From NCBI GenBank assembly GCA_017302015.1, contig JAFLEE010000023.1:1-61461 (forward strand): 61,461 nt of DNA, written 5' to 3'. The stretch's first letter is position 1, and every line of letters starts with the position of its first letter. This document shows positions 35,590 through 53,265 of this stretch, piece by piece. The notes beneath the pieces were generated by a model. It did not search any database. It worked only from the letters and a program-made list of their open reading frames with translations, and had not been told where the DNA came from. The translations under genes were made by a program, and so were the position numbers. Origin of the DNA: Spirochaetota bacterium (GTDB lineage Bacteria > Spirochaetota > UBA12135 > COTS27 > JAFLEE01).

Positions 35590-36363
35590 GTGAAAACCCT
35601 CGAAAAAGAATTAGAAACCGCGGTTCGGCTGGCCAAGCAGGCCGGAGAGCTCCAATTGTCCCGCCTCGCGGGGCTCAAACGGGTCGAAATCAAGGCGGAC
35701 CGGTCCCCGGTCTCCGAGGTCGACGAGGCCTGCGAGAAGATTCTCCGTGGGGGGCTCGAGGCCGCCTTCCCCGATGACGGCTTCCTCGGGGAGGAGACGG
35801 GGGAACGCGTCGGCCGTTCCGGCCGCACCTGGATCGTCGATCCCATCGACGGCACCCGCCCCTACCTCCACGGCATCCCGACCTTCAGCGTGCTGGTCTC
35901 CCTGGAGGACGGGGGCGACCCGGTGCTCGGCCTCATCCTCCTCCCCGCCATGGACGAACTCCATACGGCGACCAAGGGCGGGGGCGCGTTTCGGAACGGC
36001 GCCCCCGTGCGCGTCTCCAAAACCGGTAGCCTGGCCGATGCCATGGGCGCCCAATTCGGCTATTTCCACCAGCCCAACTCCCCGGAGGGCCTGGCCATCA
36101 AGGCCCTCGGATCCCGGGCCGATTACCTCTACGGCTTCATGGACGCCTGGTCCTACGGCGCCATCGCCTCGGGCCGCCTCGATTTCTCGGTGAACCTCCT
36201 CGACAAGCCCTGGGACTGCTCCGCCGCCGCCTGCCTCATCCGCGAAGCCGGCGGCCGCTTCTCCGACCTAAGCGGCCGCGAAACCACCCGCAGCGGCAAT
36301 ATGCTCTTCTCCAACGGCGCCCTCCACGATGAACTCCTGTCGTTCTTCGCGCCCACAAAATAA
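35590..36363 (+). CDS. Inositol-monophosphatase-family phosphatase
   Basis: 257 residues from a GTG start. Metal and phosphate motifs are present: the first metal Glu in GEETGER, the core DPIDGTRPYLHGIPTFSVLV and the C-terminal WDCSAAACLIREAGG. Mg-dependent enzymes of this family hydrolyse inositol phosphates, histidinol phosphate (HisN type), fructose-1,6-bisphosphate or PAP; the sequence alone does not decide. The large repeat array begins at its stop codon: the TAA itself overlaps the tail consensus of the repeat. Confidence 0.9.
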   Translation: MKTLEKELETAVRLAKQAGELQLSRLAGLKRVEIKADRSPVSEVDEACEKILRGGLEAAFPDDGFLGEETGERVGRSGRTWIVDPIDGTRPYLHGIPTFSVLVSLEDGGDPVLGLILLPAMDELHTATKGGGAFRNGAPVRVSKTGSLADAMGAQFGYFHQPNSPEGLAIKALGSRADYLYGFMDAWSYGAIASGRLDFSVNLLDKPWDCSAAACLIREAGGRFSDLSGRETTRSGNMLFSNGALHDELLSFFAPTK

Positions 36364-37557
36364 ACGCCCCGCCCCTTCTTCCCCCCAGTTCAAATGCGGA
36401 CGCGTTTGACTTGGTGCGAGACGCAGGCGGCATCCTACCCCGGTAGCAGGTAGGGGACCTCGCAGGGGCGCATCAGCGCCAAGATACTAAATGCAATCGT
36501 GCCTTACCTATTGCGCTTCCGGCCCGCCGGTGGACTTCCTCCAAGAGGTCCAAGGAACCCGCCCCCCATCAATCCCATAACCGAAAAATCGCTCCAGTAA
36601 TTTCATCCGCCCCATCTCTTCGTCCCACCCCCCAGTTCAAATGCGTACGCGTTTGACTTGGTGCAAGACGGTGGCGGCATCCAACCCCGGTAGCAGGTAG
36701 GGGACCCCTCAGGGGCGCATCGGCGCCAAGATACTAAATGCAATCGTGCCTTACCTATGGCGCTTCCGGCCCCCCGGTGGAATTCCTCCAAGAGGTCCAA
36801 GGAATCCGCCCCCCATCAATCCCATAACCGAAAAATCGCCCCAGTAATTTCATCCGCCCCATCTCTGCGTCCCACCCCCCAGTTCAAATGCGAACGCGTT
36901 TGACTTGGTGCGAGACGCAGGCGGCATCCTACCCCGGTAGCAGGTAGGGGACCCCGCAGGGGCGCATCAGCGCCACCATACAAAGCGCAATCGTGCCTTA
37001 CCTATGACGCTTCCGGCACCCCGGTGGGTCTCCTTCATGGGGACCAGGGAACCCGCCCCCAGTCTTGACCCATATCCGACAGAACGCTCCAGTAATATTA
37101 AACGCCCCGTCCTTTCCTCCCCCGGTTCAAATGCGGACGCGTTTGACAGGTCCTCGGCGTTGGCAGCGAAGTGCCCTGACCGCAGGGAGGGAACCCCGTA
37201 GGGGCGCATCAGCGCCACGATACCAATAGTAACCGAGCCTCACCGCTGGCGCTGCCAGCGCCCCGGAGGGGCTCCTCCTTGGGGTCTTGGGAAATCGGCT
37301 CCCATCATGTCCCAAAACCAACAGAAGGCCCCAGCAATTTAAACCGCCCCGCCCCTTCCTCCCCCCTATTCAAATGCGGACGCGTTTGACAGGTCCTCGG
37401 CGTTGGAAGCGGCCTGCCCTGACCGCAGGGAGGAAACCCCGTAGGGGCGCATCAGCGCCACGATACCAATAGTAACCGAGCCTCACCGCTGGCGCTGCCG
37501 GCGCCCCGGAGGGGTTTCCTCCCTGCGGTCCGGCAATCCCGCCCCACGTCGAGACCT
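36364..37557. repeat. Array of five ~245-bp structured tandem repeats
   Basis: A partial repeat tail (36364-36387) leads into units starting at 36388, 36635, 36882, 37125 and 37368 (periods 247, 247, 243, 243); the last is truncated just before the FecR gene. Each unit opens with an inverted repeat (TCAAATGCG-n2-CGCGTTTGA), then has GTAGGGG-type short stems, a GGCGC-ATCA-GCGCC hairpin and a downstream GC hairpin. Units 1-3 form one subtype, units 4-5 another; they differ in blocks. No conserved reading frame runs through the units. The region lies between convergent 3' ends. Confidence 0.9.
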
Positions 37558-37563
37558 GGTTTG

Positions 37564-39822
37564 CTAAAAGATTTTCATGGCCACATTCGCGCTAAAGAAC
37601 GACTGCTCCGTCAGCACGCCCTGGGCATTGTACTGGTAGGTCATCTGGAAGCGGTTGAGCACGTGCACCGGCGTGCCGCCCAATTGGAGGTCGAGGTCGT
37701 ACCCCCAGGTCATGTCGGGGGAAGGCTGCCAGAAGAGCAGGGGATTGGAGATATTGCGCTTGACGAAGTACCCCTCGAAATTATTGAGGATCTTGGACAC
37801 CGCGGGGACCTTCTTGAGGATCTCCTTATTGAAGACCAGCTTGGCCTGGAACGTTCCCATGCCGAAGGTGCCCGTGGATTCGGCGAAGAGCGCCTCGTAG
37901 GACGCGCTGCCGTAGAAGAGGACGAGGTAGAGTTCGGCCCACCCGTAGACGCCCGAATAGGTCGAGCCGGTCATGACGCTATCATTGGCCAGGTAGCCGA
38001 CGCCGGTGGCGTCGGGGCGCGAGCGCACCGTGTCGTAATTGCGGTTGAAATAGCCCGAATTGAAGAGCCCCGTCTGCCGGCGGAACTCGCCCTTGAGGGA
38101 GAAGATGCGCGTGCCGTCGGCGAGGCCGATGCTGCCGTAGAGGCCCGGGGCGCTGAAGCCCCAGCCCGTGGCGGCGACCTCGTCGACCCCGGCCTGGGCG
38201 GGATCGATGTTCATGGCCATCTGGCCGTAGACCTGGAAGGCGTTTTTGATGAGGGGGACCTTGAAATCGGCGCCCCACATGCCGAAGAAGTCCCGTTTGG
38301 CGATGAAGCGGTTGATGACCTCGTTGGGGGTCTCGAGGTCGAGGGCGTTGTTCACGCCCATGTTCGAGAGGACCCCGTTGAGGGTGACCCGGTTATCGCG
38401 GCTGGTGATCGTGGGGAAGACCTTGTAGGCGTTCCCGGCGGAGGTCGTCCGCAGGCCGGCGTACTGGTTGAAATCCCCGGCGAAGGCGCCGCCGATCTGC
38501 AGGCCCTTGAGGATGGCGGATTGGGAGCCGCCGAAGGGGTTGACGAAGAGCCGCCCGCCCATGATCATGCCCTGGTTGGCCAGGTCGGCGAAATTATTGA
38601 TCATATATTCGAAGCCCAGGCGGAATCCCTTCCCGACGCCGAGGGCGAAATCGAGGCCCAGGGCCTTTTCGGCGGGGTAACGCAGGCCGTTATTGTAGCC
38701 GTCCATGATGTAGCCCATGCCCAGCGTCACGCTCTCGAGTTGGCCCACGCGGAAGAAGACCGGATCCGAACCGCCGGTGACGGCGAGTTTCTCGCTCCAT
38801 TGGATATAGGTGATCTTGCGCAGGATGGTATCGAGGGCCGCCTGGGTGCTGCTGAAATCCCAGCCGCGATTGGAGGGCTTGCCCGTGCCGTCGAGGAAGA
38901 CTTCGAGATCGAGGCCCATGCGGAATTTGCCGAGGCGGAGTTCCGGGGAGAGGGCGATGCGCGTCATGGTCTGGCCGTCGAGCACCACGGGCCCGAAATC
39001 GAAGCCCATGCCGAAAGGCTTCCCGGCGGGGGCGGCGGCCGGCTCGCTTTTCGGGGCGTCTTTGGCGGGAGCCGATTGGGAGGGAGGCGTCGAACTCGCG
39101 GGGGCGCCAGCCGCCTTGGAAGCGGGCTCCGGCGCGGGTTTCGTTTCCTTGGGGGCGGGGGTCGGTTCGGGCGCCGGAGCCGGTGCCGGCGAAGCCTGGG
39201 CGGCGGGCTGCCCGAGTTGGGCGAAGCCCCCGGGCACGCCGTCTTCCATGGTCTTGATATCGGCGGGCGTGGACGGCCGGGGCGGGGTCGAAAAGCCCTC
39301 TTGGCCGATGGCGGCGAATTGCCCGGCGCCCACCATCTGGGGCGGCGTGCGGTCATTGCCGAGGGCCACGGTGCCCTCGGTCACCACGAGTTGGTCGGCG
39401 CCTTGGGAAACGCCCAGGCCGAAGGCGGTGCCCCGCACCCCGGCGACCGAGGTCGGCGTGATGAACTGGTAATCGCGCTTCTTCTCGATCTTGCTGAACT
39501 TGGCGAGGATCTTGCCGTAGTCGATATTGAACTTGCCGCTGTCGAGGCCTTCGCCGTAGGTGACCGTGCTCAGGCGGAAGCGCGTGCTGGGCCCGACGGT
39601 GATGATGGAGCCGTCGGGGAATTTGATCTCGGCGGATGCGCCCTCGCCGGTTTGGATCTGGGAATCGGCCGGGAGGATCTGGCCGGCCGAAACGGCGCCG
39701 CCGGGTTCGCCGCGCTTCTGGAAGGCCACGGCGCCCTTGACCTTATTGACGCGGATGCCTTCTTGGGGGAAAGCGGGGAGGACGAGCATCGCCGCGAGGG
39801 CGAGCATGGAGAGATGTTTCAT
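37564..39822 (-). CDS. FecR-domain / outer-membrane beta-barrel fusion protein
   Basis: 752 residues from the ATG at 39822, with AGGAG upstream; the longer open frame adds nothing like a signal. Residues 1-20 are a signal peptide. Residues ~24-165 are a FecR domain: GEGASAEIKFPDGSIITVGP and TPTSVAGVRGTAFGLGV (the typical VRGT motif). Residues ~205-268 are a Pro/Ala-rich linker. The rest is long, aromatic, glycine-rich and beta-like, ending in NVAMKIF, as expected for an outer-membrane barrel. FecR domains in spirochaetes and related phyla are often periplasmic; the fusion to a barrel suggests a surface or transport role. There is no partner sigma factor nearby. Confidence 0.85.
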   Translation of the reverse strand: MKHLSMLALAAMLVLPAFPQEGIRVNKVKGAVAFQKRGEPGGAVSAGQILPADSQIQTGEGASAEIKFPDGSIITVGPSTRFRLSTVTYGEGLDSGKFNIDYGKILAKFSKIEKKRDYQFITPTSVAGVRGTAFGLGVSQGADQLVVTEGTVALGNDRTPPQMVGAGQFAAIGQEGFSTPPRPSTPADIKTMEDGVPGGFAQLGQPAAQASPAPAPAPEPTPAPKETKPAPEPASKAAGAPASSTPPSQSAPAKDAPKSEPAAAPAGKPFGMGFDFGPVVLDGQTMTRIALSPELRLGKFRMGLDLEVFLDGTGKPSNRGWDFSSTQAALDTILRKITYIQWSEKLAVTGGSDPVFFRVGQLESVTLGMGYIMDGYNNGLRYPAEKALGLDFALGVGKGFRLGFEYMINNFADLANQGMIMGGRLFVNPFGGSQSAILKGLQIGGAFAGDFNQYAGLRTTSAGNAYKVFPTITSRDNRVTLNGVLSNMGVNNALDLETPNEVINRFIAKRDFFGMWGADFKVPLIKNAFQVYGQMAMNIDPAQAGVDEVAATGWGFSAPGLYGSIGLADGTRIFSLKGEFRRQTGLFNSGYFNRNYDTVRSRPDATGVGYLANDSVMTGSTYSGVYGWAELYLVLFYGSASYEALFAESTGTFGMGTFQAKLVFNKEILKKVPAVSKILNNFEGYFVKRNISNPLLFWQPSPDMTWGYDLDLQLGGTPVHVLNRFQMTYQYNAQGVLTEQSFFSANVAMKIF

Positions 39823-39868
39823 GGAGGCTCCTTTCGAAACGCCTGAATCCGGCCTCGTGCCGCGGCTT

Positions 39869-39887
39869 GGGAGCCATCCTGGCTCCC
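39869..39887. repeat. Solitary hairpin related to the 52-bp repeat core
   Basis: GGGAGCCA-TCC-TGGCTCCC is a perfect eight-base-pair stem. Its centre CCATCCTGG and the flanking CTTG and CCGGC match the core of the 52-bp repeats at 52961-53220, but the outer stem differs on both sides in a way that keeps pairing. Confidence 0.6.
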
Positions 39888-40372
39888 CGGCACCGATCCC
39901 TTCCCCAGGGCTGCCGCCAAAAATACGGGTCTTTTCCCGATTCCTGGATGCGGCGCCTTGTGGGTTATGAAAATCGGCGTTCGTCCCAATTCTTCCATAC
40001 ATGGAGGCAGGCAGGAAGGGGAAAAACTTTCCCCCTGCACCCCCCAATCCCGACAAATTCTAGCGATTTTCTGGGAATCCCAATGGTTTTGGCAACCTTT
40101 GGAATCCAAAAGCTACGGAAATAAAACGCGCATAAAATCGCGACTTTCTATTGAAGTCGACTCTTTACTATAAAAAGATCAGCTCGACACGACTTCCGAA
40201 GGGTGAATCCGGAAGAGTTCCAAAAGAGCGACCCGGGCAAGGAAGTCGACGTTTCCTGAAAAATCGGCCGGTCGCCATTGCCGAAGATCCGGAGAGAGCA
40301 GAAACAGTGTGTCGTCATCCACGGGAACGAAAATGGCAGGCCTCGGTGATTAATTCTTATTCCGATCCTCAT

Positions 40373-40386
40373 CCCCCCCCCCCCCC
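40373..40386. repeat. Homopolymer run of 14 C
   Basis: Fourteen consecutive C residues directly precede the diverged repeat copy. Tracts like this are length-unstable by slippage. It is not inside or close upstream of a gene on the plus strand, so phase variation is not evident. Confidence 0.9.
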
Positions 40387-40600
40387 GTCAAAAGGCGAAG
40401 CCTTTTACCTGGCCGTCGACGGTGGTAGCCTTCTCCGAAGCGGCAGGTGGGAGTCCCTGGAGGAGCGCCTCAGCGCCACCAGAAAAACCGCACACGAGGC
40501 CATCAGCGGGCGCTGCGGCGCGACGGAAGGGATTCCCACCTGCCGCGGGGAAGGGCATTCCCCGGCGAGGTCAGGGTTTCTAAATACCCCTGTTCCAGCC
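40383..40600 (+). repeat. Diverged sixth copy of the ~245-bp repeat
   Basis: It follows the order of array units 4-5: head hairpin AAAAGGC-GAA-GCCTTTT (40390-40406) in place of the TCAAATGCG/CGCGTTTGA stem, then a CTGGCCGTCGACGG segment, GGAGCGCCTCAGCGCCACC in place of the GGCGCATCAGCGCC hairpin, then CAGCGGGCGCTGCGGCGC and a final GGGATTCCC. Alignment is by eye. Confidence 0.6.
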
Positions 40601-40610
40601 CGACGGGCTC

Positions 40611-41528
40611 CTAAGACGCCTTTTCTCCCATCCCCTTGGAGAACCACGGAATCAAACGGGAGGTGCGCTTCTGGTATTCCCCGTAGGCCGGATATTTCTT
40701 TTTAGAAAGTTTTTCCGTGAGCCCCGTGGATCCCTGGAAGAGCAGGGTGAGCATCACCGCGCCGAGGATCCCCACATTTAGGAACCAGGCCCCGGTGACG
40801 GAGACGCTGAAAAGGTACACGGCCCACCAGATCCCCATTTCCCCGAAGAAGTTCGGGTGGCGGGAGAAGCGGAAGAGGCCGCTGGCGAGGAAGCCGCGCT
40901 CGAGGTCGCCGCTTCCACGCTCTCCGCGGCGCTTGCGCTCCTGGAAGGCCCATTGCTGCTGGTCGGCCACCGTCTCGATGGCGAGGAAGGCGAGGAACAG
41001 GAGGATGGCCAGGGCATCGAGCCACTGGAAGGACCGGCCCCGGTGCTCCCAGAGGACGAACGCGGGCAGGGTGAAGAGCACGAACATGCCGGCCTGGTAG
41101 GCGCAGATGAACAGCAAGTTGAAGGCTTGCCAGAGGACCGGGTTGGGGATGACGCTGCGCATATAGGCCCAGCGGTAATCTTCGGTCTTCCCGTAGCCGC
41201 CCTTGCGGGCGAAATTGAAGGTCAGGCGCGCGCCCCAGAGGGTGACGAGGCCGGCGACGAGCAGCGAGCGCCATTCGAAGTCTGCCCGCGCGGCGTAGTA
41301 CCAGACGAAGCCCACCGGCAGCGTGCTCCAGAGGCGGTCGATCCACGAATAATCCCCGCTGACCCAGCCCGCGACGAAACTCGCCAGGGCGAACCCGGTC
41401 GCCATCCAGATGCAAACCATCAGCGGGTCGCCGCTTTGGAAAAGATCCACGGGATGCCCCGAAGAGGCGACGGCGAAGACCCCGAAGGTCGTGGCGAGTG
41501 CGGCGAGGCAGAAAACGGCAAACTTCAT
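40611..41528 (-). CDS. DUF1295 / steroid-5-alpha-reductase-like membrane protein
   Basis: 305 residues from the ATG at 41528 (AGGAG upstream) with about seven hydrophobic helices. The conserved region DYSWIDRLWSTLPVGFVWYY at the start, LTFNFARKGGYGKTEDYRW in the middle and the C-terminal FRFSRHPNFFGEMGIWWAVY are typical of the family. The last motif resembles the NAD(P)H and methyl-group binding part of ICMT/5-alpha-reductase enzymes. Biochemical function in bacteria is mostly unknown. It lies 142 bases after the UvrD-type helicase in the same direction. Confidence 0.85.
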   Translation of the reverse strand: MKFAVFCLAALATTFGVFAVASSGHPVDLFQSGDPLMVCIWMATGFALASFVAGWVSGDYSWIDRLWSTLPVGFVWYYAARADFEWRSLLVAGLVTLWGARLTFNFARKGGYGKTEDYRWAYMRSVIPNPVLWQAFNLLFICAYQAGMFVLFTLPAFVLWEHRGRSFQWLDALAILLFLAFLAIETVADQQQWAFQERKRRGERGSGDLERGFLASGLFRFSRHPNFFGEMGIWWAVYLFSVSVTGAWFLNVGILGAVMLTLLFQGSTGLTEKLSKKKYPAYGEYQKRTSRLIPWFSKGMGEKAS

Positions 41529-52960: not shown

Positions 52961-53220
52961 CGGCTCCCGCATATCCTGCGCTTCGCCGATCTTGCGCCAT
53001 CCGGGCGCCGGACGGCTCCCGCCCATCCTGCGCTTCGCCGATCTTGCGCCATCCGGGCGCCGGACGGCTCCCGCCCATCCTGCGCTTCGCCGGTCTTGTG
53101 CCATCCTGGCACAGGCCGGCTCCCGCCCATCCTGCGCTTCGCCGGTCTTGTGCCATCCTGGCACAGGCCGGCTCCCGCCCATCCTGCGCTTCGCCGGTCT
53201 TGTGCCATCCTGGCACAGGC
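52961..53220. repeat. Array of five 52-bp direct repeats with an internal hairpin
   Basis: Units start at 52961, 53013, 53065, 53117 and 53169, each exactly 52 bases. Bases common to all include CTGCGCTTCGCCG and the CATCC hairpin loop. Units 1-2 carry GCGCC-ATCCG-GGCGC; units 3-5 carry TGTGCCA-TCC-TGGCACA, so a C-G pair has become T-A with pairing preserved. There are no spacers between units, so this is not CRISPR. Because 52 is not a multiple of three, all frames give repeated but meaningless peptides. Confidence 0.93.
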
Positions 53221-53265
53221 CCGAATGCCCAACAGAAAAACAAGAAGAGTTCGGTATTAATTTTC

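Follow-up and report, generated by a model that had tools for sequence, protein, structure and literature searches.

A structured, dispersed intergenic repeat at gene 3′ ends in a Spirochaetota genome

The window analyzed here is the whole of contig JAFLEE010000023.1 (C82; 61,461 nucleotides) from the genome assembly of a Spirochaetota bacterium (GCA_017302015.1; 5.43 Mb, 165 contigs, 93% complete). Repeat finding and TRF delineate five head-to-tail units at 36381-37566, which belong to two subtypes (units 1-3 and units 4-5) and begin directly behind the TAA stop codon (36361-36363) of an inositol-monophosphatase gene, as described in the initial annotation. The periods of 247 or 243 bases given there apply to most of the array, the start-to-start spacings being 247, 247, 242, and 243, with one value (242) departing from that description. 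A separate copy with the same order of parts, previously placed at 40383-40600, indeed exists but spans 40387-40613. The features of the locus are listed below (CM, covariance model; H1, head hairpin; H3, tail hairpin).

36381..36627, + strand: tandem unit 1, with a pyrimidine tract and H1 at 36391-36408; CM match 36389-36607
36628..36874, + strand: tandem unit 2; CM match 36636-36854; right arm decayed
36875..37111, + strand: tandem unit 3; CM match 36883-37110; right arm decayed
37111..37357, + strand: tandem unit 4, second subtype, partly intact; CM match 37126-37357
37354..37566, + strand: tandem unit 5, intact; H1 37371-37388, closing stem approximately 37390-37558
37564..37566, − strand: TAG stop codon of the gene head-on to unit 5, directly behind the GGTTTG of that unit
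37564-39822, − strand: gene for a FecR-domain protein, filling the stretch between the array and the separate copy
40263..40359, + strand: upstream module, common to several copies of the subfamily of the separate copy
40387..40613, + strand: separate copy (subfamily D); CM match of 247 bits; parts ordered as in the tandem units
40611..40613, − strand: TAG stop codon of the DUF1295 gene, the final three bases of the separate copy
40611-41528, − strand: DUF1295 gene, the docked neighbor, head-on to the separate copy

Unit 2 is 94% identical to unit 1, in which the left arm resembles those of the other copies and the right arm has decayed. Compared with shuffled sequences, unit 1 does not fold strongly (z = −1.1), in contrast to unit 5 (−10.0) and the separate copy (−5.2). 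The arms of the long hairpin lie at 37409-37450 and 37501-37542 in unit 5; the separate copy consists of H1 (40390-40406), the closing stem and long hairpin (approximately 40408-40575), and H3 (40597-40609). In the arrays on C82, C117, C119, and C140, the last unit alone is intact, but as a general rule this pattern had to be rejected given that the array on C57 breaks it. The units differ from one another by substitutions and related copies are present on other contigs, so the array is not an assembly artefact of one unit, the explanation against which the initial annotation had cautioned.

A covariance model built from 22 copies (R1) detects 40 units in the element orientation at 31 loci of the genome, a count that excludes opposite-strand readings of the same hairpins and two weak matches at contig ends; a refined model (R2) yielded no clear additional copies in this genome. 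Unit 5 and the separate copy, used as queries in DNA searches, also retrieve dispersed relatives there. The copies include 14 full members of subfamily D, which share 79-92% identity, the relatives of the tandem units (subfamily T), and several more diverged subfamilies that occur singly or in tandem. The search among relatives proposed in the initial annotation gave no further copies, one half of what had been named there as refuting its reading, whereas this genome alone supplies 40 units. The separate copy has no match in 40 relatives at the DNA level, and the covariance model has none in three other genomes of the same class or, under strict filters, in any of 392 other genomes sampled across the phylum (these three included), a sample that contained no genome from the same family or genus and in which, given the filters, weak or diverged relatives could be missed. 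A comparison of 4227 Rfam families with the window gave nothing above the gathering score except a tRNA, and viral contigs contain no match to the element. A pattern scan of 84,980 species genomes returned 18 scattered matches in unrelated taxa, which are taken to be due to chance. Two contigs of the genome end in a near-identical shorter variant (C10:14289-14459 and C100:135775-135945). It resembles the element in the type of its head hairpin (TTCAAATGCGAAGCGTTTGAC) and in ending with GGTTTGC, differs from it in the long hairpin, and stands behind an ordinary terminator-like hairpin.

The element is approximately 230 nt long and comprises, from 5′ to 3′, a pyrimidine tract, a head hairpin, a closing stem, a bubble, a long imperfect hairpin, and the motif GGTTT(G/C), which in many copies is followed by a tail with a third hairpin. 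In many subfamilies, the long hairpin contains a recurrent 3x3 purine-rich internal loop of the GNA/GRA-like type, and the apical loop is often CCGCA-like. The fold is maintained by compensatory change across the subfamilies. The compensated replacement in the head stem that had been noticed between the two sites in the window (CAAATGC/GCGTTTG to AAAAGGC/GCCTTTT) is confirmed, and many such replacements exist across the genome, where this stem also appears as GAAATGC/GCGTTTC, AAAAAGC/GCTTTTT, TAAAATGC/GCATTTTA, and in other versions. In a 30-sequence alignment, which was fitted to the covariance model, double-sided changes occur at 32 of the 45 base pairs, compared with 15.4 in shuffles (none of 500 as high) and with only 10-17 pairs when the partners are slid by 1-3 columns; 97.3% of the cells pair, against 40-48% after sliding. 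A plain MAFFT alignment agrees, giving double-sided changes at 22 of the 45 pairs. In the 14 D copies, private mutations number 24 in 104 paired columns and 74 in 121 unpaired ones (p ~1e-5); since these mutations avoid the pairs, resident copies, and not only those that spread, are under constraint if the private changes arose after landing. A codon-position test over the copies gave no coding signal, and read-through of the TAG codon into the element was rejected, the frame being open in only part of the copies and the codon positions unbiased. The element is a real structured family selected for its fold and not for protein; the earlier proposal of selection on a folded nucleic acid is upheld by the double changes, the paucity of private mutations in stems, and the lack of a codon signal.

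The data favor the + strand of the window, the one that points to the end of the neighbor gene, as the folding strand. At the level of subfamilies, the ratio of G-U to A-C events on this strand is 23:5 (p = 0.0009), although the pairs were chosen on the + strand and part of the asymmetry could come from that choice; when the structure is fitted to the − strand, A-C events still outnumber G-U events. Within subfamily D, the asymmetry is absent (5:7). The RNAalifold consensus energy is −85.7 kcal/mol for the + strand vs −68.1 kcal/mol for the − strand. The + strand runs toward the end of the docked gene and is antisense to that gene.

At most loci, the right end of the element directly adjoins the 3′ terminus of a transcription unit oriented head-on. 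The right edge lies at the stop codon of the head-on gene at 24 of the 31 loci; of the remaining seven, one lies 12 nt from a stop codon, one is beside a tRNA-Arg gene (approximately 10 nt from its 3′ end), and five are not docked. The placement of an apparently mobile repeat at gene 3′ ends, originally proposed for the copies in the window, is seen genome-wide. At 14 loci (11 D and 3 T), the element ends in the three bases that form the TAG stop codon of the head-on gene; TAG terminates 12 of the 38 genes in the window. In the other subfamilies, the stop codon (TAG, TAA, or TGA) is adjacent to either the GGTTT motif or the third hairpin, or is no more than approximately 20 nt away from it. 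The docked genes are unrelated and ordinary (an HflX-like GTPase, AraC and LacI regulators, RNB-domain and DUF2961 proteins, and others). Where complete copies are docked, they dock by their right end with constant polarity, and the left neighbors occur in either orientation; the left end is not sharply defined, and two left-truncated copies (C81:22821 and C96:19793) begin at the stop codon of the left gene. Insertion into a TA target, as in IS630-like MITEs, would explain docking at TAG and TAA but fails for TGA. No U-tract terminator was recognized at the copies, so termination would have to rest on the hairpin alone.

Some copies carry an upstream module, which reaches approximately 210 bp where complete. 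A recurrent open frame ending in VIHGNE..G* is present near many copies, but a coding origin was rejected; because the frame is broken in several copies and searches with the module match only beside element copies, the module is considered part of the element. In L039 and other D copies, the module includes a unit of approximately 68 bp located 5′ of the head hairpin, which is doubled in L039. Beyond the element and this module, the flanks have nothing consistent in common. Dispersal to unrelated genes, together with a subfamily of close copies, indicates that the element has been copied. No terminal inverted repeat was seen; the right end is often CTA, docking at TGA also occurs, and the left end is unsharp. 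Among candidate enzymes, the Y1 (RAYT) transposase (PF01797) has no match in this genome (93% complete), with positive results in six control genomes; the Y2 transposase has no match in a search without a positive control; and the reverse transcriptase (PF00078) has none, with three controls positive.

The element is best read as REP- or ERIC-like in behavior but differently built. REPs are defined as palindromes of 20-40 bp that carry at one end an unpaired tag, GTAG or CGTC; they are located close to 3′ ends, and in many cases are thought to act as RNA (PMC3733652). Where a REP lies no farther than 15 nt from a stop codon, ribosomes stall (as stated in PMC12306157). Like REPs, BIMEs, and REPINs, the present elements are dispersed intergenic palindromes that prefer gene 3′ ends, occur both as singletons and in clusters, and are represented by several types per genome. 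The REP label that had been suggested as one option nevertheless fails on size (approximately 230 nt and a three-part fold vs 20-40 bp), on the tag (neither GTAG nor CGTC), and on the transposase (no RAYT gene found); in addition, the right edge is flush with the stop codon, with constant polarity. When the gene strand is read, TAGG followed by a hairpin stands at the right end in subfamilies D and T only, with TAA or TGA at this place in the others. The second group for comparison, ERIC/IRU, Correia-NEMIS, CIR, and other MITE-like repeats, consists of non-coding intergenic sequences, 100-200 bp long, that give rise to transcripts with long stem-loops and some of which affect the neighboring mRNA; ERIC elements in particular undergo co-transcription and seem to influence the stability of mRNA (PMC2229807). 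The element shares their non-coding, dispersed, and intergenic character and the long stem-loop but, unlike them, displays covariation between strongly diverged subfamilies, stop-codon docking, and tandem arrays; terminal inverted repeats with TA ends were not seen in these copies, whose left end is not sharp.

On balance, the element is probably a lineage-specific mobile structured intergenic repeat of approximately 230 nt, non-coding, whose role at gene 3′ ends would be that of a boundary at the level of RNA; both this role and mobility by an enzyme are inferred. The folding strand would be transcribed toward the docked gene, and the folded RNA would form a boundary that halts convergent as well as antisense transcription and protects 3′ ends. 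The element would spread by copying into new gene 3′ ends via some enzyme and multiply locally by tandem duplication. Points that speak against this reading are the lack of a recognizable U-tract at the copies, the five undocked loci and the one at a distance of 12 nt, the unsharp left end, and the limits of the strand asymmetry, including its absence within subfamily D. A farther-reaching version, which appears unlikely, would place the element in a novel class of structured, mobile nucleic acids able to recognize the 3′ ends of transcription units (stop codons, the tRNA end), to insert flush with them, and then to stay selected as a transcript boundary, the mover being a structure-reading enzyme that is neither a RAYT nor a reverse transcriptase. 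Bacterial intergenic repeats are mostly short palindromes, and proof of a selected fold is scarce for them; here, a single genome combines deep covariation, constrained resident copies, and precise docking on gene ends, so that a transcript-boundary service to the host becomes directly testable. If docking stems from insertion, this would be a mobile element that prefers the 3′ ends of transcripts.

It is also possible, if doubtful, that the fold serves mobility alone, as single-stranded DNA copied by an HUH transposase or a similar enzyme, with docking reflecting target preference and no benefit to the host. The ends of REPs and of IS200/IS605 elements favor one strand, as the present element does, and such a mechanism would fit the retention of the fold in many subfamilies while the letters change, as well as the group of 14 close copies; however, neither the transposase searches (Y1 with its controls, Y2 without) nor the controlled reverse transcriptase search revealed a candidate, and mobility alone need not explain why stems of resident copies are poor in private mutations. 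That the copies are ordinary host terminators related by duplication or gene conversion, with no mobile element involved, is quite improbable: strong hairpins without U-tracts do follow several other stop codons in the window, and docking extends to a tRNA gene, but the flanking genes are unrelated, the flanks are alike only in the element and upstream module, the head hairpin and the internal loops show more specificity than termination calls for, and tandem arrays exist.

The integron offers yet another parallel. attC sites share with the element a position behind a stop codon, folding of the strand opposite to the gene in question, and conservation of shape rather than letters; in addition, the genome encodes a true integron integrase (TIGR02249, 358 bits vs a cut-off of 265). 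This integrase (C77:6508-7440) adjoins a cassette array (C77:883-6139) with at least five long attC-like repeats around AT-rich cassettes. Nevertheless, an origin of the element as an attC-like site of an integron-type system, with each docked gene and element forming a former cassette, seems very improbable, considering that the stem base lacks the paired core boxes RYYYAAC/GTTRRRY, the attC-like repeats of the resident integron are not matched by the element model, the flanking genes are ordinary host genes, and the tandem units lack a cassette gene.

Several other sequence features were noted in passing. A perfect run of 20 CTTC units is located near one copy (L030:2283-2362). At 52961-53221, the window contains a 52-bp tandem repeat in five copies, parts of which form hairpins; it is unrelated to the element. 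Across the window, CTAG occurs 22 times vs 197 predicted from base composition, that is, approximately nine times more rarely.
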